This document shows, in pieces, positions 1-10,451 of a stretch of 64,000 bases of DNA (position 1 is the stretch's first letter; every line of letters starts with the position of its first letter). The stretch lies in contig JASBRV010000049.1 of the NCBI GenBank assembly GCA_030149295.1, positions 1 to 64,000 of the forward strand. The letters are read 5' to 3'. The notes beneath the pieces were generated by a model that did no database searches, was not told the origin of the DNA, and saw only the letters and a program-made list of their open reading frames with translations. The translations under genes were made by a program, and so were the position numbers. The DNA comes from Bacteriovoracales bacterium. Lineage in GTDB: Bacteria > Bdellovibrionota > Bacteriovoracia > Bacteriovoracales > Bacteriovoracaceae.

Positions 1-3000
1 GATTGATTATTTCCACAGGCCTCATAGGCAGTTGTGAAATCGTTGAGACGATCGAGACAGGGACCACTTTCGCTGGGGGATAGAGCTTTACAGCGGTTGT
101 ATTCGGCCATGTACTGATTGCGATCGCTTTCAAGATTGGCCTTACACTGGGTATTGTCACCACAGGCCTGATAGTCTGCTACGTATTTTTCGAGTCTTTG
201 TAAACAAGGCCGTACTTCACTTTGTGGAAGTGAATTACAACGATTGACCTCTACCTCATAAGAATCTTTTTGGGCAATTAGATCATCCTTACAGGTTTGA
301 TTGGTACCACAGGCTTCATATATTGTTATAAAACGATCAAGATCCTCAAGACAGGTGTCGCGGCTTGGGCCTTGCTTGGCATGGCACTTATTGAGTTCGT
401 CTTGGTAGAGATTTTTATCGGCCATGAGTTTTTCAACACAAATATCGTCATTCCCACAGGCCTCAACTTTGGCCACAAATTCATTGAGGTCACTAATACA
501 TTGCGACTGCTCATTTTGAGGAAGACCTTCACAACGAGCTAATTCAGCTTGGTAATCATTTTTTTGCGCCATTAGGGCTTCTTTACAAGCTTCATCGTCG
601 CCGCAAGCCTCATACTTTTCAGTAAATTTTGCCAATTGGCTAAGGCAAGAGTCTTTGGCAGGTCCCTTCTTTTCATTACAATTGGCCAAAGCCGCGAGGT
701 ATTCCTCTTTATCTTTTCTCAGTTGATCTTTACAGGCCTCGTCAGTTCCACATGCTTTCATTTCTGCCATGAACTTCTCAAGATCGCCCATGCACTTTTC
801 TTTCTCTTGTGTTGAAGGCTTTGCTTCACAAGCAGCGACTTGAGCCTCGTAATCAGCTTTATCTTTTCTGAGATCAGCCAAGCATTGTTGGTTTGATCCA
901 CACGCTTCGTAAGAAGTTATATAATCACTTAGATTCGTGTGACAGGTTTCTTTCTCGGTACCTTGTAAAGATTCACAGCGGTTATATTCGGCAATGTATT
1001 GGTCTCTATCTTGACGTAGATTCGCTTTGCAAGCTTCATTCGATCCACAGGCTTCATAGCGAGTCACGAAACTTTCTAAGCGACCAAGACAAGCGGTGAC
1101 TTCGGATTGAGGAGATAAACCATTACAGCGAGATTCTTCCGCTAGGTATTCGTCGCGATCACGACGAAGGTTGCTCTTACAAGTGATACTGGCACCACAA
1201 GCCTGATATTGAGAGACAAACTTATTCAATCTATCGAGACAAGCTTTCTGATCATCTCCAGTTTTTTGCATACAAGCAGCTTCTTGTTCTTTGAAGTCGT
1301 CTTTGTCGGCAAGAAGTTGATCTTTACAGGCTTGATCTTGTCCACAGGCTTTAAAACTAGTGATAAATTGATCCAGGTTAGTGAAGCATTGGGTTCTTTC
1401 CTCTCCACTTAATTTTTCACAATTTAAAGTTTCGGCCTGTACTAAGGCGCGGTTTTCTTCAAGCTCGTTTAGACAAGCTTGATTTTTATTACAGGCCTTT
1501 ACTTCCTCAACATAAGCATTGAGTGAATCGTGACATCTCTCTTGTTCGGCCGCAGGTTTGGCGTCACATTTAGCAACCTCTGCTGTGTACTCAGCTCGTT
1601 GCTGATTGAGCTGATCTTTACAGGCTTGATCATTTCCACAAGCTTCATATTCAGCAGTGAATTCGTCAAGGTTGGTTAAACAATTTGTTTTCTCTGTTGA
1701 GGTGAGGGCCTCACAACGAAGTCGTTCAGTATCATAAGCCTCTTTATCCGCCATGAGTTGATCGATACAGGCTTGATTACTTCCACAGGCAATATAGTCA
1801 TTAGTAAACTTATTGAGACGATCCAAGCAGGCCTGTTTTTCTGTCGTGTTTGTTTGACCTTCACAACGCGTTCTTTCAGCAGTGTATTCGCTTTGTCGTT
1901 GGCGAAGGGTATTTTCACATTGAGTATCACCTTCACAGGCCTTAAAAGATGCTAGAAAGGTATCAATATTATTTTGGCAACTTGTTTTATTTTCTCCACT
2001 TAAAGCGGCACAACGTGCTTGTTCTTGAAGGATCAAATTTTTGTCGGCCGTGAGTTGGCTGCGACACGTTTGATCGGTTCCACATTCTTCCATCTTTGCC
2101 GTGAAATAATCTAAGTTACTAAGGCAAGCCGTTTTATCATTACCCGTCATTGAATTACAGCGGCGAAGTTCGTCTTGATAAGCGATTCTATCGGCTTCTA
2201 AATTAGTCTCACAGGTATTATTTCCATTACAGGCTTCTAACTTCGCTACATAATCATCGAGGTTCTTTTGACAGCTCTCTCTTTCTTGGGCGGTGGGCTT
2301 GGCTTGGCAAACAGCTTTTTCTTTATTGTATTCCTCTTTTTGGGCTAAGAGCTCATTTTCACAGGCAATATCTCCCTTACAAGCTTTGTATTTTTCTGTA
2401 AAGCTATCAAGTCTTCCTAAGCAGGCGGCCTGATCATTTGAATTGGAAATTGCCATACAAGCTTCATATTCCTGATTATAGGAATTTCTATTATCGGCAA
2501 GTCTTTGCTTACACTGGTTATCGGTACCACACGCCTCATAGGCTTCGGTGTAATCACTTAAGCGTTGAAGACAGCTTGTCTTTGCAACACCTGCCATGGC
2601 CTCACATTTATTGAGTTCATTATTGTAATCGTCTTTATCAGCAAGTTTTTGGTCTTTACAGGCTTGATCAGTGCCACAAGCAAGGTAGCTATCAAGAAAA
2701 GACTCTAGTCTTTGATGACAAGATTCTTTTTCTGGAGAGCTCTTAGCATCACACTTACTTTTTTCGTTAGCATAAAGTTCTTGATCGGCAAGAAGTTGAT
2801 CTCTACACACTTGAGTAGAGCAGGCGTTAAAAGTATTGGTGAATTCAGTCAGGCGGGACAAACATTGTGACTTTTGAGGCTCAGTCTTAGCCATACAATT
2901 GGCTTCTTCTTGTTGGTAAGCAATTCTTCTGTCTTCAAGCTCTTTTTCACAGGTGGCATTGCCATTACATGCTTCTAAGTCAGCAACATATTTATTTAGG

Positions 3001-3260
3001 TTATTGAGACATTCTTGATTTTTGGGTGAGGCATAGCTTTCACAACGGGTTTGTTCATTTTTGTAAGCAATTCGTTGTTCATCAAGTTCTTGTTCACAAA
3101 CAGTATTACCATTACAAGCCTCAAACTTAGTTACGTATTTTTCTAAGTTTTTAAGGCACTCAGTTTTGAAGGGATCACTCTTCGTTTCACAATTAGCTTT
3201 TTCTGTAGTGTAAAGATTTCTTTGATTCTCTAAATTAGTCTTACAAGCGGTTGTGGTACA
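1..3260 (-). repeat. 147-bp coding tandem repeats (~22 units)
   Basis: The Cys-Gly block of the repeat recurs every 147 bp (for example near plus-strand positions 14, 161 and 308), which is 49 codons. A few units are one codon longer or shorter (48 or 50), always in phase. Units have diverged strongly at DNA level, while the Cys, Leu and aromatic positions are kept, so this is an old, selected protein repeat and not recent slippage. Confidence 0.9.
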
Positions 3261-3614
3261 GGCGAGATAAGAGTCTACATAGGCATCAAGTCTCGTGAGG
3301 CAAAGAGCATCACCACCACAAGCTTTTGCTTCAGTTGTGTACATCAAGAGATTTTGATTGAGCTCATCTTTACATTTATTTCTTTCGACTACTGTGGGAA
3401 TTTTATTACATTCAAGAGATCCCCCTTGAAGCCAAGTTTGTTCTTTTTCTGTGAAACAAAAGTCATAGGAACAGTTCCAATTATTTCCGGAAGCCTGACA
3501 AGAATTAGCCTGAGAAATAAGAGGGTCTCCTGCCGGGTAATTACATGGAGTCGCGAAGGACTCTGCCATGACTAAAAGGAAGATGAATGTGAGAAAGAGT
3601 TTAACCATTTTCAT
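1..3614 (-). CDS. Giant secreted Cys-rich tandem-repeat protein (partial)
   Basis: This is one uninterrupted minus-strand frame of 1,204 codons from an ATG at 3614 to the left edge, so the C-terminus is missing. The first ~22 residues (MKMVKLFLTFIFLLVMAESF) are a signal peptide. A unique Cys-rich region of about 90 residues follows, then about 22 complete repeats of ~49 residues and the start of another. The repeat has four Cys in the pattern C-x5-C-x17-C-x10-C-x13; a typical unit begins CGTDQACKDQL and ends FTAEYEA. The x17 and x13 segments are Lys/Glu/Gln-rich and look helical. I infer a chain of disulphide-clamped helical hairpins outside the cytoplasm: the inner Cys pair would close the turn and the outer pair the open end. 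I recognise no named family. An alternative start is ATG 3608. Function unknown. Confidence 0.9.
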   Translation of the reverse strand, partial: MKMVKLFLTFIFLLVMAESFATPCNYPAGDPLISQANSCQASGNNWNCSYDFCFTEKEQTWLQGGSLECNKIPTVVERNKCKDELNQNLLMYTTEAKACGGDALCLTRLDAYVDSYLACTTTACKTNLENQRNLYTTEKANCETKSDPFKTECLKNLEKYVTKFEACNGNTVCEQELDEQRIAYKNEQTRCESYASPKNQECLNNLNKYVADLEACNGNATCEKELEDRRIAYQQEEANCMAKTEPQKSQCLSRLTEFTNTFNACSTQVCRDQLLADQELYANEKSKCDAKSSPEKESCHQRLESFLDSYLACGTDQACKDQKLADKDDYNNELNKCEAMAGVAKTSCLQRLSDYTEAYEACGTDNQCKQRLADNRNSYNQEYEACMAISNSNDQAACLGRLDSFTEKYKACKGDIACENELLAQKEEYNKEKAVCQAKPTAQERESCQKNLDDYVAKLEACNGNNTCETNLEADRIAYQDELRRCNSMTGNDKTACLSNLDYFTAKMEECGTDQTCRSQLTADKNLILQEQARCAALSGENKTSCQNNIDTFLASFKACEGDTQCENTLRQRQSEYTAERTRCEGQTNTTEKQACLDRLNKFTNDYIACGSNQACIDQLMADKEAYDTERLRCEALTSTEKTNCLTNLDEFTAEYEACGNDQACKDQLNQQRAEYTAEVAKCDAKPAAEQERCHDSLNAYVEEVKACNKNQACLNELEENRALVQAETLNCEKLSGEERTQCFTNLDQFITSFKACGQDQACKDQLLADKDDFKEQEAACMQKTGDDQKACLDRLNKFVSQYQACGASITCKSNLRRDRDEYLAEESRCNGLSPQSEVTACLGRLESFVTRYEACGSNEACKANLRQDRDQYIAEYNRCESLQGTEKETCHTNLSDYITSYEACGSNQQCLADLRKDKADYEAQVAACEAKPSTQEKEKCMGDLEKFMAEMKACGTDEACKDQLRKDKEEYLAALANCNEKKGPAKDSCLSQLAKFTEKYEACGDDEACKEALMAQKNDYQAELARCEGLPQNEQSQCISDLNEFVAKVEACGNDDICVEKLMADKNLYQDELNKCHAKQGPSRDTCLEDLDRFITIYEACGTNQTCKDDLIAQKDSYEVEVNRCNSLPQSEVRPCLQRLEKYVADYQACGDNTQCKANLESDRNQYMAEYNRCKALSPSESGPCLDRLNDFTTAYEACGNNQ

Positions 3615-3626
3615 AACTCTAATTTT

Positions 3627-3685
3627 AAAAGCTCCCGGCCTTCTCAAGAGCTTTTAGTTACCCTTATTCATGTAGTTATAAGGGT
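3627..3685. promoter_or_regulatory. Two inverted repeats upstream of the Cys-rich gene
   Basis: AAAAGCTC (3627-3634) pairs with GAGCTTTT (3648-3655), and ACCCTTAT (3660-3667) pairs with ATAAGGGT (3678-3685). Both lie in the divergent intergenic region (3615-3831) just upstream of the ATG at 3614. They could be 5'-UTR hairpins or operator sites for the Cys-rich gene; nothing in the sequence decides between these. TATAAT at 3765-3770 is a possible -10 for the plus-strand gene, but no clear -35 accompanies it. Confidence 0.35.
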
Positions 3686-3831: not shown

Positions 3832-4479
3832 ATGTTTTTTCAATTGGCCAAAAAGGCCCCCATTCTTTGGATTTTTGGACTTTTCGTGATCAATGCGGTG
3901 ATAAGTTCATGCGTTTTAGGGCCAGAGGAATACGATGGTGCTCAAGATGATGGTACCTATACGGGTACGATGGTCGTTTATGATGGCCCCGGAACTGATC
4001 CAGACTTTATTGATCGTACCTGTCCAGAAATTAGCGCCACCATGGTGGTGAGTGGGGATAGTGTAGTGCTCACCACAAGCGATGATTATCCCAATTATGA
4101 ATTTTGTGCTCCTGTAGGGGGGCGACGGGTTTATACCTGCGCTGATGCACCGGTTGTCAATCACTCCGCCAGTACGACCAGTTTTGGAAACAATCAGTTT
4201 AAGCTTGAAACCACTTGGGATATCGATAAATCTGACACCCAGCTCTCAGACCTGATGAACCTTGAGGTGTGTGGTGCGACACCGCCCAGCTTACCGGGAG
4301 ACCCCTCTACTGGTGGTCGAGGTCGCCTTATTGAGTTTGCTCTTAGAGTCGATGAGCCGGGATTTGTAGGGGAGTATGGAAATGGAGCTGTTCGTGGATC
4401 TCTTTTTTATGGGGTTAAGTGCACTGGCGATGAATACATTCCCCTTTGCGTTTACTTTATGCAGTTGAGTAAAAATTAA
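3832..4479 (+). CDS. Predicted lipoprotein, unknown function
   Basis: 215 aa. The N-terminus has a hydrophobic stretch followed by the lipobox VISSC, with Cys27 as the likely lipidation site, so the protein should be anchored in the envelope. The mature part is Gly/Asp-rich and holds about seven further Cys, consistent with disulphides in the periplasm. I recognise no family. It is divergent from the Cys-rich repeat gene. Its TAA interlocks with the TAA of the opposing FecR-barrel gene in a TTAA tetranucleotide. Confidence 0.75.
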   Translation: MFFQLAKKAPILWIFGLFVINAVISSCVLGPEEYDGAQDDGTYTGTMVVYDGPGTDPDFIDRTCPEISATMVVSGDSVVLTTSDDYPNYEFCAPVGGRRVYTCADAPVVNHSASTTSFGNNQFKLETTWDIDKSDTQLSDLMNLEVCGATPPSLPGDPSTGGRGRLIEFALRVDEPGFVGEYGNGAVRGSLFYGVKCTGDEYIPLCVYFMQLSKN

Positions 4480-6626
4480 AAGTTTACTAAATACTCAAAA
4501 CTTACATTGTCGTTATTGTCCCATTGACCAAAATTTGATTCTAAGTCTCCAGAATAGAGTTCACTTTTAAGGCGGTACTGGCTGGTTCCTGTGGTGTAAT
4601 TCACTCCAAAGATTTGGGCGCTACCATTGTATTTCAGGTCAAAATGAAAATCGTAGTTAAAAGATAGATTGTCATTCACATTAAAGACCATAGTTCCGAC
4701 CCAACTATTTTGATAAAAGCGGGCATTGATGGAGCTTAAAGCATAGAAGGGTTGGGATTGAGCGCTTCGAAGATTTTCCCTTCCATGCTCAAGGATAAGA
4801 TCCACAGAGTTTAAACCTAGTGCTTTTGGCCAACCATCCATGACATACCGGGTACCAATCATTATGGCAGTGAAGGAGTCATCTTTTCCTTCTTCTGCAT
4901 TTTGATTAAGAATTTCACCATGGAGTTCTAGGCCTGAAAAGGTGGTTGAAAAGCCCGCACTAAAGAAGGTGATAGGAATATGCTCTTGGACCAAGGTAAA
5001 AGTAGGAACATTATTGATGACGGCAATGTCGTTTCTTACCACTGGATTTGTATTAGGCCCATTAAAAAAAGTAAAAAGCCAGTCTGTTCCCCACTTGGTT
5101 CCTTCTAGCTTCAACATGATAGGAGTTGATCTCGTTGAGAATCCAGAGGGGAGATCTTGTCGCAACTCGAAGTTGATATCAGAGTAAAGAGTGGTCCATC
5201 GACTGTTTTGAGTGGGGCTTTTATTAGGAACAACGGCAGGAAGTAAAATCCCAGTTAGGGTCCAATCATCCAAGTAATAATCGAGAGAGATAAAAAAGTT
5301 GCCTAGAAAAAGAGGGGATGTGGGTATGGTCGCATCGGCCGGAGAGAAGGAATCACTGGGAGAGTAAATGATACCTTTTCCTGTTTTGAGAATTTTTTTA
5401 CCAAATTGGATGTCAAAATTTCTCGTTGTGTAAGTATAGTATAGCTCGTTAAGATAGAGGTAGTTTCTTTGGCTTGATTGGAGATCAAAGGTCTCACCTA
5501 GATCATTGTAGACTCCTTTGCGATTACTAATATCTAGCCATCCCGTAAAGGTCATAGATTCCACGTCATTAAATTGATATTTATTACCAAAGTTAAGACG
5601 AAGGTCTTGATGAAAATTTTGCGGGTCCACATTTCCAACATCTTGGCGTGGAGTTGAGCTATAGACTGTTGATTTAAGAAAAAGAGAGAGATCAAGAGGA
5701 TTTTTCTTTTCTTCTTTTTGAAGTTTTCGATTAGCCTTTTCCAAATTATCAAAAGAGAGCTTATTGTCTTTTGTTTCTCTAAGGAGACCAGTGTTGTCAC
5801 TTAGTCTCACAGTAGGCTCTTTTTTAAAACTTTCTTCACCAAAAATATCAGCGGCAACCGCCGTATTATCGATATCACTGCTAAAAAGCTCTGAGGCATC
5901 TTCAACGACGGGGGCCGTCTGTTCGACGATAGAATCCCCAAAAATAGCGGCTGCTTCAGCGACTGCAGATGATGTCGAGATGGTAGATTTCTTATCTTCC
6001 TTTTGCTTTGGATCTTTCTTTTTCGAGGAAGGTTTTTTGATAAAATAGACTGGCTTTTGATTGGGGTCATTTTGGCTTAAGAGTTCGATCTCTTTTTGAC
6101 TAATGGTCAAGTTATTTGCGCTGTCTTTTTTATTTCGAAAAGCGTAACTATAAACCCGACTATTATTACGGGGCTTAAAATAAAAGCGATCACCCCTAGT
6201 GAGAGCATCAAATTCGTAAGCACTATAAGTTTTATCAAGGTTATTTCCTGTGATGAATACCTCAGGACTGCCTCCACCAAAGTATTGACCTCTGATAACT
6301 CCTTTAAAAACTCTAAGGAGGTACTGGCTTTTTCCCTGAGAATAAAAAAGTTGAATCTTACTATTTTCACCTATGATAATTTCACTCCGTAAGCCAAGTT
6401 TAAGCACTGCTTGTGAATTCTCTCTTGTGATAATTATTTGGCGGTCGTAGAGATAATCACCTCTTGTTAAATAAATGAGACTGCGATCGGCACGGCCGAG
6501 GCCAACAAGGCTTCCTTGAACTTTCTTAACATTACCGACTCTGACACGAGGAATTCTTCGAGCAAAGTCTTGGGCTAAACTTTCACCGATGAAAAAAATT
6601 ATGAATAGAGTAAGAAGAGATCGCAC
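4476..6626 (-). CDS. FecR-like domain fused to an outer-membrane beta-barrel
   Basis: 716 aa from a GTG start directly before a signal peptide ending ...GESLAQ. Residues ~30-170 resemble a FecR-type periplasmic domain (ending in a VFKGVIRG-type strand). Residues ~195-310 are a Lys/Ser/Ala/Glu-rich low-complexity linker. From ~320 to the end alternating aromatic strands ending in YLVNF indicate an outer-membrane barrel that closes on a terminal Phe. It is the last gene of a three-gene operon after an RND exporter (7446-10451) and a LolA-like protein (6632-7429), 5 nt after the latter. It therefore probably supplies the outer-membrane step of the same export system. The fusion of FecR-like and barrel parts is unusual; the FecR assignment is by pattern only. 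Confidence 0.7.
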   Translation of the reverse strand: MRSLLTLFIIFFIGESLAQDFARRIPRVRVGNVKKVQGSLVGLGRADRSLIYLTRGDYLYDRQIIITRENSQAVLKLGLRSEIIIGENSKIQLFYSQGKSQYLLRVFKGVIRGQYFGGGSPEVFITGNNLDKTYSAYEFDALTRGDRFYFKPRNNSRVYSYAFRNKKDSANNLTISQKEIELLSQNDPNQKPVYFIKKPSSKKKDPKQKEDKKSTISTSSAVAEAAAIFGDSIVEQTAPVVEDASELFSSDIDNTAVAADIFGEESFKKEPTVRLSDNTGLLRETKDNKLSFDNLEKANRKLQKEEKKNPLDLSLFLKSTVYSSTPRQDVGNVDPQNFHQDLRLNFGNKYQFNDVESMTFTGWLDISNRKGVYNDLGETFDLQSSQRNYLYLNELYYTYTTRNFDIQFGKKILKTGKGIIYSPSDSFSPADATIPTSPLFLGNFFISLDYYLDDWTLTGILLPAVVPNKSPTQNSRWTTLYSDINFELRQDLPSGFSTRSTPIMLKLEGTKWGTDWLFTFFNGPNTNPVVRNDIAVINNVPTFTLVQEHIPITFFSAGFSTTFSGLELHGEILNQNAEEGKDDSFTAIMIGTRYVMDGWPKALGLNSVDLILEHGRENLRSAQSQPFYALSSINARFYQNSWVGTMVFNVNDNLSFNYDFHFDLKYNGSAQIFGVNYTTGTSQYRLKSELYSGDLESNFGQWDNNDNVSFEYLVNF

Positions 6627-6631
6627 CTAAT

Positions 6632-7429
6632 TTACTTTATGTGCATTTCTTTTTCTAAAAATCTTTTCTCAAATTTTAGGTCATCAATGGGCTTATTAAG
6701 CTTTCTTGAATTGATTTTTATAAAAGTCTTTTGAACTCCATGACGGTCCATGATGGCTAAGTTTGGGCGCATAAGATTTGATTCTGTTACCCATTTAGCG
6801 TATTCAGCCGTCTTGAGCTTTTGTCCTTTTAGATCATAGAAAACGATCTTAAGGGTAATGAGGTCCTTTTTATCCACAAGAAGCATTCTTTTAGAGTAGC
6901 CAATATTACGAGACTCGGCTGGGCTAATAGGTTTAGCCTCAATCACATAACATTGGGACTTACCGTTTTGGCATTTAACAATGCTTTGGCAGGTGTAGGA
7001 GTTTTTTTCGAGATTTTCTCCTTCAAGGTCTGCATAAGTAAAGTCTGTTCCCATGAAGTATTCTTTTCTTGAACCACTGGCAATTCTCTGTAGCTTTTTG
7101 ATTTGAGGAAGATAGAGCCATTGATTTTCTTCTCCATCTTCTTTCCAACTTAAAAGACCAGCACCTTTAATAGAGGCAGGGCCTTTAAAGTAAAGAACGG
7201 AGCGAGAATTTTTCCCATCTGGCTTACGACCGAATCTAATGAGGGAGCGACTTTCTTTTTTCTGAGTTCTTTGGTCTAGGATGATGATACTTTGATCTTC
7301 CTCCTCAGTTTGAGCAGAGTTTTTCTCTTCTTGTGCCTTCATTATATCCATCCCTTTTTTGTCACATTTAGCGTGAATAAGAGAAGAGGTGAGAAGGCCT
7401 AGAAATAAAGCAGCAAGCAGGTTAGGCAT
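6632..7429 (-). CDS. LolA-like outer-membrane lipoprotein-sorting protein
   Basis: 265 aa with a signal peptide (MPNLLAALFLGLLTSSLIHA) and a good AGGAG ribosome binding site. The mature part has the features of the LolA_like family that accompanies RND/MMPL exporters: a run of amphipathic strands around RSLIRFGRKPDGKNSRSVLY, then LYLPQIKKLQRI and FMGTDFTYADLE. Such proteins are thought to carry a hydrophobic ligand across the periplasm. It lies between the exporter and an outer-membrane barrel, with 16 and 5 nt gaps, which fits a three-compartment export pathway. The ligand is unknown. Confidence 0.8.
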   Translation of the reverse strand: MPNLLAALFLGLLTSSLIHAKCDKKGMDIMKAQEEKNSAQTEEEDQSIIILDQRTQKKESRSLIRFGRKPDGKNSRSVLYFKGPASIKGAGLLSWKEDGEENQWLYLPQIKKLQRIASGSRKEYFMGTDFTYADLEGENLEKNSYTCQSIVKCQNGKSQCYVIEAKPISPAESRNIGYSKRMLLVDKKDLITLKIVFYDLKGQKLKTAEYAKWVTESNLMRPNLAIMDRHGVQKTFIKINSRKLNKPIDDLKFEKRFLEKEMHIK

Positions 7430-7445: not shown

Positions 7446-10400
7446 TTAACTAAGGTTTGTCATCTTTAAATTATGACAAATTTTCTCAAAAGTTCTAGGG
7501 GAAAGAACTTGAAACTTTTCTTCAGGTAATACCAGATAAACGTGACTACTTGAGTCCTTTAGTGGGACAAAGAGAGTCGAATTTTTTCCTACTTGAGACT
7601 TTCTTGTCGCCACTATTTTCCCACTTTTAAGAAGCTCATTGACTTCATTTAAATCCATATTTTCAAAGACTGCACCTTTTTGAAAGTGATGGGACTGAAT
7701 GAGCATCCACGCCATATGACCTCTACTCTTTTCTTCAGTAAAAAAGAAGTTACTGAGAATGGCAGGACCCAAATAAAGGTCTGAAATGACCGCTAAAATG
7801 AGGACATAGGCGCTAAGGAGACCAAAGTAAATCATAGGAACGAATCTAGCGAAAGCAAAAAAACTAAAAGAAAGGGCTAAAGACAAGCTCGTGGTTAAAA
7901 TGGGAACGACCTCATCACTAATGGTGAGTTGAGAAGTTGTTATAGGGTTGTAGGTCAGTTCTTTATCACGAAAATATCTCGTAAAGAGGTGAATTGTATC
8001 GTCAGCTGCGATTCCAATGGTAATGGTCGCAATGATACAAGTTCCAATGTTAAGAGGAATATTCATAATTCCCATGATTCCAAAAAGACCAAAAATAGGA
8101 AATAGGTTAGGAAGAAGGGAAAGTAGACCAGTTTTAAGAGACTTAAAAAACATCCACATGAGAAGCACAATTACAAGGCCCATACTTAAAAGAGAAGAAG
8201 TTTGAGACTCAACCATGGTATTGGCAGCATAGAGATTGAGGATATTTCGACTCGTAAAATAATATTTGACTGGTTTATCTTTCAACTTTTGATCCAGAAA
8301 ATTTTTTAATCTTTGAACAAAGGCCTCTGTTGCTTTTGAGGAAGAGAGGTCGTGGGTAAATTTGATATTTGCTCGTTGTTTATCTGATGTGATAAGAGGG
8401 TCGAGCTCATCTCGGCTCAAAAGAAGAGAATATTGATCAATAAGGGGCTGTTCATCGGGAATACGGTAATAGCTTTTGTTGCCATCGTGCATTTCTTGAT
8501 TAAGAAGAGAGATAAGCCCCGAAAAACTATCAACATCTTCTACTTCTCTAAATGCTTTTAGTTCTCGATGAATCTCCCATAAGAGTTTTAGGTAACTTGT
8601 TTGGCTAAACTTAGCTCCTTCAGCTTTCTTCTGATCATTAAAGTCAAAAACGATGTGGATATTCTTTGTACCACCGATCTCCTCTTTAAATTTAAGTAGG
8701 TCCTTCTTTACTTGAGTACGGTTGGTAATCATGGCAAAGGTGTCGTTATCTACCTCAACGTTAAGGGCAAAATAAGCATTAACAATAAGAAAGAGAAGGA
8801 TAAATATAGCCGGAACTTTTGAGAAAATGAGGTTGTAATAGATCGCTGAGAAAAAAGCTTTGCTAGACTTGAAAAGGTTTTTGCCTTTGGGGTCTCTTAT
8901 TTTATTGCCAAAAAATTTCAAGTGAAGAGGGAGATAGAGAATCGTCACTGTGAAAGCAAAAACTAATCCCATCGTGGAGACAATGGCAAATTCTTGAAGC
9001 ATTTGTATTTCACTAAGACGAATACTGAGAAAGCCAAGTGAAGTAGTAGAGAAAGTGAGAATTAAGGCCTTTCCTATGTCACGACTCACAAAACGAAGGG
9101 AGTCTGCATCTTTTAAAGAGCGATGAGCTGCCTCTTTTAAAGAGCTACTTATGTGAACGATTTCAGTAGCACTTAAGGTAAGAATAATTCCGGGGACAAT
9201 ATTGACAAGAATTTGCACAGGAATATCAAGATAGGTCATCCATCCAAAGGCCCACAGAGTGCTCACTCCTGTAGTGAATATCGTAATAACAAAGGCTGCA
9301 TTAGAGCCCAAAAAGATAACAAAGCAAACAAGAAGCACCAGAGTGATAAGAGGGAGGAAAATCTTGGGAGTCCAACTCATTTCTTCCTTTTGAAACAGTT
9401 CTAGAGAGGGTTCTCCTGACTGAAAAATAGTATCAAAATCCTTCTTAAGTGTTTTGATGTGAGGCTCAAGTTTTTCTGCAATAGGGATTAGGTTTGTGAT
9501 GTCTTTGGACATCTCTAGTACAATGACAATAGTATTCTTAGGGACATCAATTAGACGTCCATGAAGGTTGGGATCTTCTTGAACGTCCAATAGCTTTTGA
9601 GAAAGCTCTTCAGGACCTATGTCCAATTCTGAAAAAAGGGGCTCGGTATAGAGTGTGTCTTCTTTTTTATTAAAGTGGATGAAAGGGGTAGTAAAGACAC
9701 TACGAACTCTGGAGACATTTTTTACTGTTTGGAGTTCCCACGCTAGATTTTGAATTTTACTTAGTTTCTCTTTACTGAATATGTTTCTATCTTGAAAATA
9801 AATGAGTGCTGTCTTATCACCACCAAAAAGCTTAGTAGAGTCAATATACTGCTTCATTATAGGTGTGCCATGAACCATGACTCTATCAAGAGAGGCATCA
9901 AATTTAAGTTCACGAATATGATAGGCGGGAAATAGACTTAGGATGATTAAGAGAAAAATACTTATCCAAGGTTTATTAAAGAAAAGAAGAAGTACAGACT
10001 CTAGATGGCGTGTGAAGTCTTTGGAGGGGAGGGGAAGTCCCTCTCCTTCATGGTCTATCTTTTCAACTGTATTTATAGCTTCTTGGTTTGATAAGGAAGG
10101 TAGTTCTATTAACCAAGTGGTTAGTTCCTCAGGTGATAGTCCTTTTAGTAAATTGACATAAAATTGGTCTCCCTCAACGAGCGAGAATGTTGAGAATTCA
10201 TGTTCACCATGGCGCTTACTCTCTTTTAAATGAACTTCAACTTCGAGACCGCGATAGGAAATTGTCCCTCTTAAAAATGGTTTTTGAGGACACAAAGCCA
10301 CTAGTTTTAGCGGTGAAGCTTCCACCAGCGTTATGGAAAATGACTCCTGAGAACCAAGGGGTCGGTAAGTCACCGTTACTCGATTTTCAGGAGAAAAAAG

Positions 10401-10451
10401 TATGGGTTTCATATACATCCTATGTATCTGATTTTCGGTAATTTTTAGCAT
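7446..10451 (-). CDS. RND/MMPL-superfamily exporter
   Basis: 1,001 aa with the duplicated RND layout. There is an N-terminal cytoplasmic segment (~1-155), TM1 near 162-182, a large periplasmic loop, and a bundle of TM helices (~375-520). A second TM/loop unit starts near 560, and a last TM bundle (~750-905) contains TITIGIAADDTIHLFTRYFR, with the paired Asp typical of proton-relay helices. The extra N-terminal ~150 and C-terminal ~95 residues are not standard; the N-terminal part could be PilZ-like, but this is uncertain. It is the first gene of the exporter / LolA-like / barrel operon. ATG 10451 has a poor ribosome binding site; ATG 10412, preceded by AGGA, is an alternative. Confidence 0.85.
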   Translation of the reverse strand: MLKITENQIHRMYMKPILFSPENRVTVTYRPLGSQESFSITLVEASPLKLVALCPQKPFLRGTISYRGLEVEVHLKESKRHGEHEFSTFSLVEGDQFYVNLLKGLSPEELTTWLIELPSLSNQEAINTVEKIDHEGEGLPLPSKDFTRHLESVLLLFFNKPWISIFLLIILSLFPAYHIRELKFDASLDRVMVHGTPIMKQYIDSTKLFGGDKTALIYFQDRNIFSKEKLSKIQNLAWELQTVKNVSRVRSVFTTPFIHFNKKEDTLYTEPLFSELDIGPEELSQKLLDVQEDPNLHGRLIDVPKNTIVIVLEMSKDITNLIPIAEKLEPHIKTLKKDFDTIFQSGEPSLELFQKEEMSWTPKIFLPLITLVLLVCFVIFLGSNAAFVITIFTTGVSTLWAFGWMTYLDIPVQILVNIVPGIILTLSATEIVHISSSLKEAAHRSLKDADSLRFVSRDIGKALILTFSTTSLGFLSIRLSEIQMLQEFAIVSTMGLVFAFTVTILYLPLHLKFFGNKIRDPKGKNLFKSSKAFFSAIYYNLIFSKVPAIFILLFLIVNAYFALNVEVDNDTFAMITNRTQVKKDLLKFKEEIGGTKNIHIVFDFNDQKKAEGAKFSQTSYLKLLWEIHRELKAFREVEDVDSFSGLISLLNQEMHDGNKSYYRIPDEQPLIDQYSLLLSRDELDPLITSDKQRANIKFTHDLSSSKATEAFVQRLKNFLDQKLKDKPVKYYFTSRNILNLYAANTMVESQTSSLLSMGLVIVLLMWMFFKSLKTGLLSLLPNLFPIFGLFGIMGIMNIPLNIGTCIIATITIGIAADDTIHLFTRYFRDKELTYNPITTSQLTISDEVVPILTTSLSLALSFSFFAFARFVPMIYFGLLSAYVLILAVISDLYLGPAILSNFFFTEEKSRGHMAWMLIQSHHFQKGAVFENMDLNEVNELLKSGKIVATRKSQVGKNSTLFVPLKDSSSHVYLVLPEEKFQVLSPRTFEKICHNLKMTNLS

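Follow-up and report, generated by a model that had tools for sequence, protein, structure and literature searches.

A giant exported protein with a fixed number of four-cysteine helical units in Bacteriovoracaceae: a candidate envelope strut with a lipoprotein and a barrel-like companion

CagY is a very large protein of the Cag type IV secretion system of Helicobacter pylori, a periplasm-spanning machine, and it contains many alpha-helical repeats in tandem, with cysteines at regular positions (PMC2581425, PMC6520456). Its motif A repeats are 38-39 residues long and vary by recombination with function retained, and its C-terminus has a VirB10-type fold (PMC2581425, PMC6520456). The Sel1-like Helicobacter cysteine-rich proteins HcpB and HcpC are likewise built from disulfide-bridged alpha/alpha hairpin repeats (PMC2581425). 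A different kind of envelope set is represented by TOL_3187/3188 of Thalassolituus, in which genes for MMPL and LolA-like domains adjoin one for a presumed outer-membrane porin, with a link to hydrophobic substrates, here alkanes (PMC6304351). How does the locus described here, at the left end of a 64,000-nucleotide stretch of Bacteriovoracales contig JASBRV010000049.1 (the window), compare with these systems?

The giant protein encoded there resembles CagY in its size, as an envelope protein and in having a tandem alpha-helical array with regular cysteines, and by analogy CagY may be its closest functional counterpart. The sequence families do not match, however: neither the CagY-repeat nor the VirB10 (TrbI) Pfam model is found in the window protein (E ≤ 10) or in seven full-length orthologues (E ≤ 0.1), and the giant differs from CagY in its 49-residue four-cysteine units, its frozen unit number and the lack of recognised type IV genes alongside. 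Sel1-like and TPR repeats are alpha/alpha units of 34-38 residues (36 in HcpB/HcpC), whereas the giant has a period of 48-50 residues, four cysteines per unit and many more repeats than HcpB/HcpC, and the window protein has no match to the Sel1-like or TPR Pfam models. The preliminary description had compared the units with CHCH proteins, in which a helix-turn-helix is held by cysteine pairs. That likeness goes no further than analogy, as a Pfam match is absent and the spacing differs: instead of twin CX9C or CX3C motifs the giant has x17 and x13 within its helices and x10/11 and x4/5 in its turns, and it is bacterial and tandem with turn stapling favoured. The neighbouring genes do carry the MMPL and LolA_like Pfam domains of an MMPL-LolA export set, but neither a giant stem nor a partner lipoprotein has been reported for such clusters. 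In agreement with the earlier view that no named family fits, Pfam, NCBIfam and PDB sequence searches of the giant returned only sub-threshold matches to unrelated families, and the open-licence literature searched holds no description of this family.

The window gene (3..3614, minus strand) comprises 1204 codons counted from its likely ATG and specifies ~60% of the giant, starting at the N-terminus. The frame itself is open over 3..3647 (1215 residues, 97 cysteines), and the methionine at 3614 begins a good predicted signal peptide (3552..3614, minus) that is shared by the orthologues, with cleavage placed by eye after ...ESFA (AESFA before the cut, TPC after it). It is followed by module A, a six-cysteine head (3372..3551, minus; C-x14-C-x8-C-x4-C-x15-C-x11-C), by a short-turn transition unit (3246..3371, minus; C-x17-C-x5-C-x13-C) and by the tandem array (3..3245, minus), which holds units 1-22 of an expected 26. 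The signal peptide and the open left end had both been noted before, and they stand: base 1 of the window coincides with the first base of contig C99, and the assembly thus truncates the gene. A single-sequence search of the genome contigs with the window protein found nothing; an alignment of the C-terminal region did find relatives, and a profile of this region located the missing C-terminus, which the preliminary description had proposed to look for, on another contig of the same genome (G000:C128:2-1873). This 623-residue open frame begins within the last array unit and ends in a pair of hydrophobic hairpins followed by a CxC tail. Since the orthologues of the same genus have 26 regular units, ~4 units of the window giant would lie in the assembly gap. 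We rejected the possibility that the array is an assembly artefact, as the same array occurs in seven other assemblies.

Full-length orthologues of 1998-2055 residues are encoded as single open frames in four Bacteriovoracaceae genera, namely the window's own (G003, G005, G006) and three others (G013, G058, G116, G040, G050). They share one architecture: a signal peptide, module A, the short-turn unit, 26 or 27 regular four-cysteine units and module B, then a first hydrophobic hairpin, a helical stretch of ~70 residues, a second hydrophobic hairpin, and a linker with a C-x-C tail before a C-terminal S-x-RY motif. The profile of module B matches module A (E 0.0016 in the window protein, 12-35 bits in the orthologues), and the array is therefore capped by homologous modules. 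The preliminary description had counted at least 22 in-phase repeats of ~49 residues, and the count holds: after the head and the single short-turn unit, the window contains 22 units of the form C-x17-C-x10/11-C-x13-C-x4/5 (~49 residues each, period 48-50), into which every window cysteine beyond the head falls. Mean identity among these units is 37% for amino acids and 44% for DNA, the latter too low for a recent expansion of a DNA repeat, which we rejected; to judge from the sequences, the four-cysteine pattern is neither chance nor the product of recent duplication.

The number of units is frozen as well. Regular units, defined by C-x17-C-x9-12-C, number 26 in the window's genus (g1) and 27 in g8, g35 and g45 (seven full-length orthologues), giving arrays of 1279-1284 and 1327-1332 residues, respectively, with one unit gained or lost between the two classes. 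When units were scored one by one for all species pairs, the best register showed no offset (0) for pairs of the same class and a shift of +1 for pairs of different classes, and this positional match persists down to ~35% identity, the per-unit signal in mid-array being weak for the most distant pairs. The constant register indicates that the units are positional orthologues and that the array has been without turnover even at this divergence.

How such a long stem would hold together is suggested by its composition. Its hydrophobicity is very low, only 19% of its residues being I, L, M, F, V, W or Y, so that stability probably rests on disulfides. All mature cysteines can be aligned, and every full-length protein has an even number of them, 126 or 130; extra cysteines in three proteins fall in or before the signal peptide, and in G058 the cysteine of the second hairpin is displaced by one alignment column. 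Between the window protein and its nearest orthologue (G005), 97 of 97 cysteines are kept at 64% overall identity while 23 of the 97 cysteine codons differ synonymously, a pattern that bears out the earlier proposal that selection maintains these residues. Across 62 members of the wider family, Cys52, the third cysteine of the end module, and its upstream partner Cys38 are both present in 29/29 and both absent in 33/33, a count in which three nearby cysteines sit inside signal peptides; being gained and lost jointly, the two behave as a disulfide would. The window genome encodes DsbA proteins and a DsbA-VKOR frame, the kind of oxidation system whose presence had been proposed as a check, so that the even cysteine number, the paired gain and loss and the oxidation machinery expected of a disulfide-bonded exported protein are all found. 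The frame in question (G000:C66:50516-51577, L106; 394 residues) matches VKOR and DSBA and is likely a fused disulfide-forming enzyme.

Which cysteines would pair? In compact family members the four remaining module cysteines are invariant and would pair most simply as 44-57 and 73-85. In module A, the pair equivalent to 73-85 would use the first cysteine of the array, and parity would then make all later pairs neighbours. The likelier scheme is thus a staple at every turn, with C2-C3 closing one turn and C4-C1' the next. The preliminary description had favoured a clamp in which C2-C3 closes the turn and C1-C4 the open end of each unit; we set the C1-C4 pairing aside as less likely on grounds of end-module homology and parity, because it leaves an odd cysteine at each end.

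A model of five window units, computed with AlphaFold2 from these and 84 aligned in-phase segments, was obtained with high confidence (pLDDT 92.4, pTM 0.75) and predicts ten helices arranged as five hairpins, in line with the two helices per unit originally proposed. In a PDB fold search the best matches to the stem model were designed helical repeats (top Z 8.7, rmsd 10.2 Å over 208 residues), and fold searches overall gave no significant Foldseek match and nothing beyond helical repeats and four-helix bundles of a generic kind, from which it does not follow that the fold is new. The model of the C-terminal region has lower confidence (72.7, falling below 50 at residues 273-319) and finishes in four long predicted helices that resemble generic four-helix bundles. 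Estimated from helical packing, 26-27 units would measure ~26-28 nm as a stacked two-layer solenoid and ~50 nm if placed side by side, and both lengths would reach across a typical periplasm.

The neighbourhood of the giant gene is as distinctive as the protein. Head-to-head with it lies a lipoprotein gene (3832..4479, plus; lipobox ...ISSC), an arrangement seen at every four-cysteine locus that has this flank. Next come a gene for a 716-residue protein (4476..6626, minus) with a FecR-like N-terminal domain and a presumed outer-membrane beta-barrel, one for a LolA-like outer membrane lipoprotein-sorting family protein (6632..7429, minus; PF17131, E 1.4e-43) and one for an MMPL/RND transporter (7446..10451, minus; PF03176, E 1.8e-11; nearest NCBIfam model HAE3, below cut-off). 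The 716-residue protein had no match in a Pfam search, and its barrel is presumed from a sequence pattern and a C-terminal aromatic residue. LolA-like and MMPL/RND genes also adjoin the barrel-like gene in G001, G004 and G040.

Among 129 genomes of the bacterial family, with G164 set aside, the lipoprotein occurs in 11/11 genomes with a four-cysteine giant and 0/117 others, and the full-length FecR-barrel-like protein (E < 1e-150) in exactly 15 genomes, those of the 11 four-cysteine giants and of four giants with a module-type stem (15/15 with a giant cysteine-rich stem of either kind, 0/113 others); these counts are strong but non-independent, since the giants form one clade (SH-aLRT 90), may have a single origin and may owe their co-occurrences to few evolutionary events. 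Beyond these, matches are confined to the FecR-like part, except for a weaker second copy in G004 and one partial match in G031. The sole genome of the window's genus that lacks the giant, G002 (84% complete), also lacks the barrel-like protein and the lipoprotein. In G040 the barrel-like protein and the giant are both present on different contigs (C50 and C40), with the lipoprotein still adjoining the giant and the RND-LolA-barrel operon elsewhere. At the same syntenic locus in g3, whose flanks on both sides are conserved with g34 and g28, there is a compact anchor protein with a FecR-only protein, and neither a barrel nor a LolA-like gene; the barrel-less FecR-like proteins lie near the compact anchor at L087:4810-5328 (minus) and L151:6823-7251 (minus). 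A giant fragment with a lipoprotein is also carried by contig C140 (L056) of G164, a g10 bin. This fragment is 100% identical to the g8 genome G116, and we rejected it as an independent case and took it as bin contamination.

The C-terminal hairpins belong to a much wider family of anchor proteins. Of the 129 genomes of this bacterial family, 127 have members, against a single weak match among the 240 remaining genomes of the phylum; named records with such a protein are from Bacteriovoracaceae, Halobacteriovoraceae and Halobacteriovorax. The majority of members are compact (~580-900 residues), often with several copies per genome. In a quick tree of the anchor region, the four-cysteine giants form one clade (SH-aLRT 100) that joins giants with stems of tandem six-cysteine modules (SH-aLRT 90). 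The same anchor also occurs with other architectures: the g34 giants (L090:8683-15108, minus; L091:1-4335) have tandem six-cysteine modules of ~70 residues, with 138 cysteines in a protein of 2141 residues; a g28 protein of 1745 residues (L043:7779-13016, minus) has ~700 residues of decapeptide-like repeats of the xELKAAGFTA type and then six-cysteine modules; and a g7 protein of 1797 residues (L094:4794-10187, minus) has a proline-rich, coiled-coil-like insert of ~1000 residues within the second hairpin loop, in a genome where no full-length barrel was found. A second anchor clade adjoins a gene for a VanY-type D-alanyl-D-alanine carboxypeptidase (L089:7397-8107, L096:11439-12128, L097:6656-7336).

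The hairpins are rich in Gly and Ala with borderline hydropathy (Kyte-Doolittle peak 1.4-1.9), and together with the low AlphaFold2 confidence this leaves their transmembrane status not secured. A cysteine is conserved at both hairpin tips, in 59/62 and 57/62 members (for example L032:11471-11935, plus). If the hairpins spanned the inner membrane while the remaining protein lay in the periplasm, these tip cysteines would be cytoplasmic and therefore reduced. Either the tip cysteines are unbonded or the hairpins do something other than simply span the inner membrane, and the conservation of these residues would fit such a simple topology poorly.

What, then, would the giant do? The preliminary description had offered an extracellular or periplasmic stalk, spacer or adhesin, of which a stalk or spacer is plausible and an adhesin is without support so far; export is likewise predicted, and the conserved end module, the two hydrophobic hairpins and the CxC tail speak against a protein that simply floats free. 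Based on the frozen length, the capping modules, the likely disulfides, the anchor and the companionship of lipoprotein and barrel, we propose, at a probability of roughly 0.45, a disulfide-stapled, membrane-anchored envelope strut of fixed length that works with the lipoprotein and the barrel and perhaps with the RND-LolA export genes. The stem would consist of antiparallel helices arranged as a ladder, almost every turn being closed by a disulfide. Selection would keep its length at 26 or 27 regular units, flanked by the two homologous six-cysteine modules, and the C-terminal hairpins would hold it in a membrane, of which the inner is the simplest choice. It would cross the periplasm and bring the N-terminal head into contact with the adjacent lipoprotein of the outer membrane and the barrel protein. 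The three may hold or bridge a conduit that the RND (MMPL) pump and the LolA-like carrier supply and through which a lipid or another amphiphile would reach the outer membrane. The RND and LolA-like genes nearby suggest export of such cargo, on the analogy of other MMPL-LolA sets (PMC6304351).

The same parts could be arranged otherwise. The stem might project outward as an extracellular stalk or prey-contact fibre, fixed by the hairpins or by the lipoprotein and barrel, with module A held off the cell; Bacteriovoracaceae and Halobacteriovoraceae include many predators, numerous disulfides and acidic, hydrophilic helices are features well suited to an exposed protein, and the barrel and lipoprotein could form an outer-membrane base. 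In surface adhesins, however, the number of repeats and the sequence of the tip usually vary, whereas the giant is frozen in unit number and order and conserved in module A, and Pfam recognised no adhesin family, which makes an outward fibre a doubtful reading, though one to be taken seriously. We regard as unlikely that the giant is a molecular ruler or scaffold for some other, CagY-like envelope assembly with the RND and LolA genes as mere neighbours: its constant length, giant size and cysteine-bearing helical repeats recall CagY (PMC2581425, PMC6520456), and the G040 giant keeps the adjacent lipoprotein and not the RND-LolA-barrel operon, but no VirB10-type or other secretion gene was recognised among the neighbours scanned and the barrel-like protein co-occurs in all 15 cases. 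It is very improbable that the double hairpin inserts into the membrane of another (prey) cell with the stem as a tether. Gly/Ala-rich hairpins with tip cysteines would fit an oxidising environment on both sides, but compact anchors are present in nearly every family member, often in several copies, and no secretion route is evident.

Bacterial proteins with 126-130 cysteines that all need correct pairing are rare, and a copy number without drift over such divergence suggests that length itself is selected, as for a ruler in the cell envelope. We tentatively hypothesize that these loci encode a new class of envelope machine of Bacteriovoracaceae, in which a ruler of 26-27 stapled hairpins of selected length sits on an anchor linked to a dedicated lipoprotein and barrel, and in which at least two kinds of cysteine-rich stem on the same anchor would serve the same barrel. 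Almost ubiquitous in one bacterial family that contains predators, the anchor family is confined to it within the phylum sample searched and has no model in the protein-family libraries searched, which makes it a good candidate for lineage-specific envelope biology.
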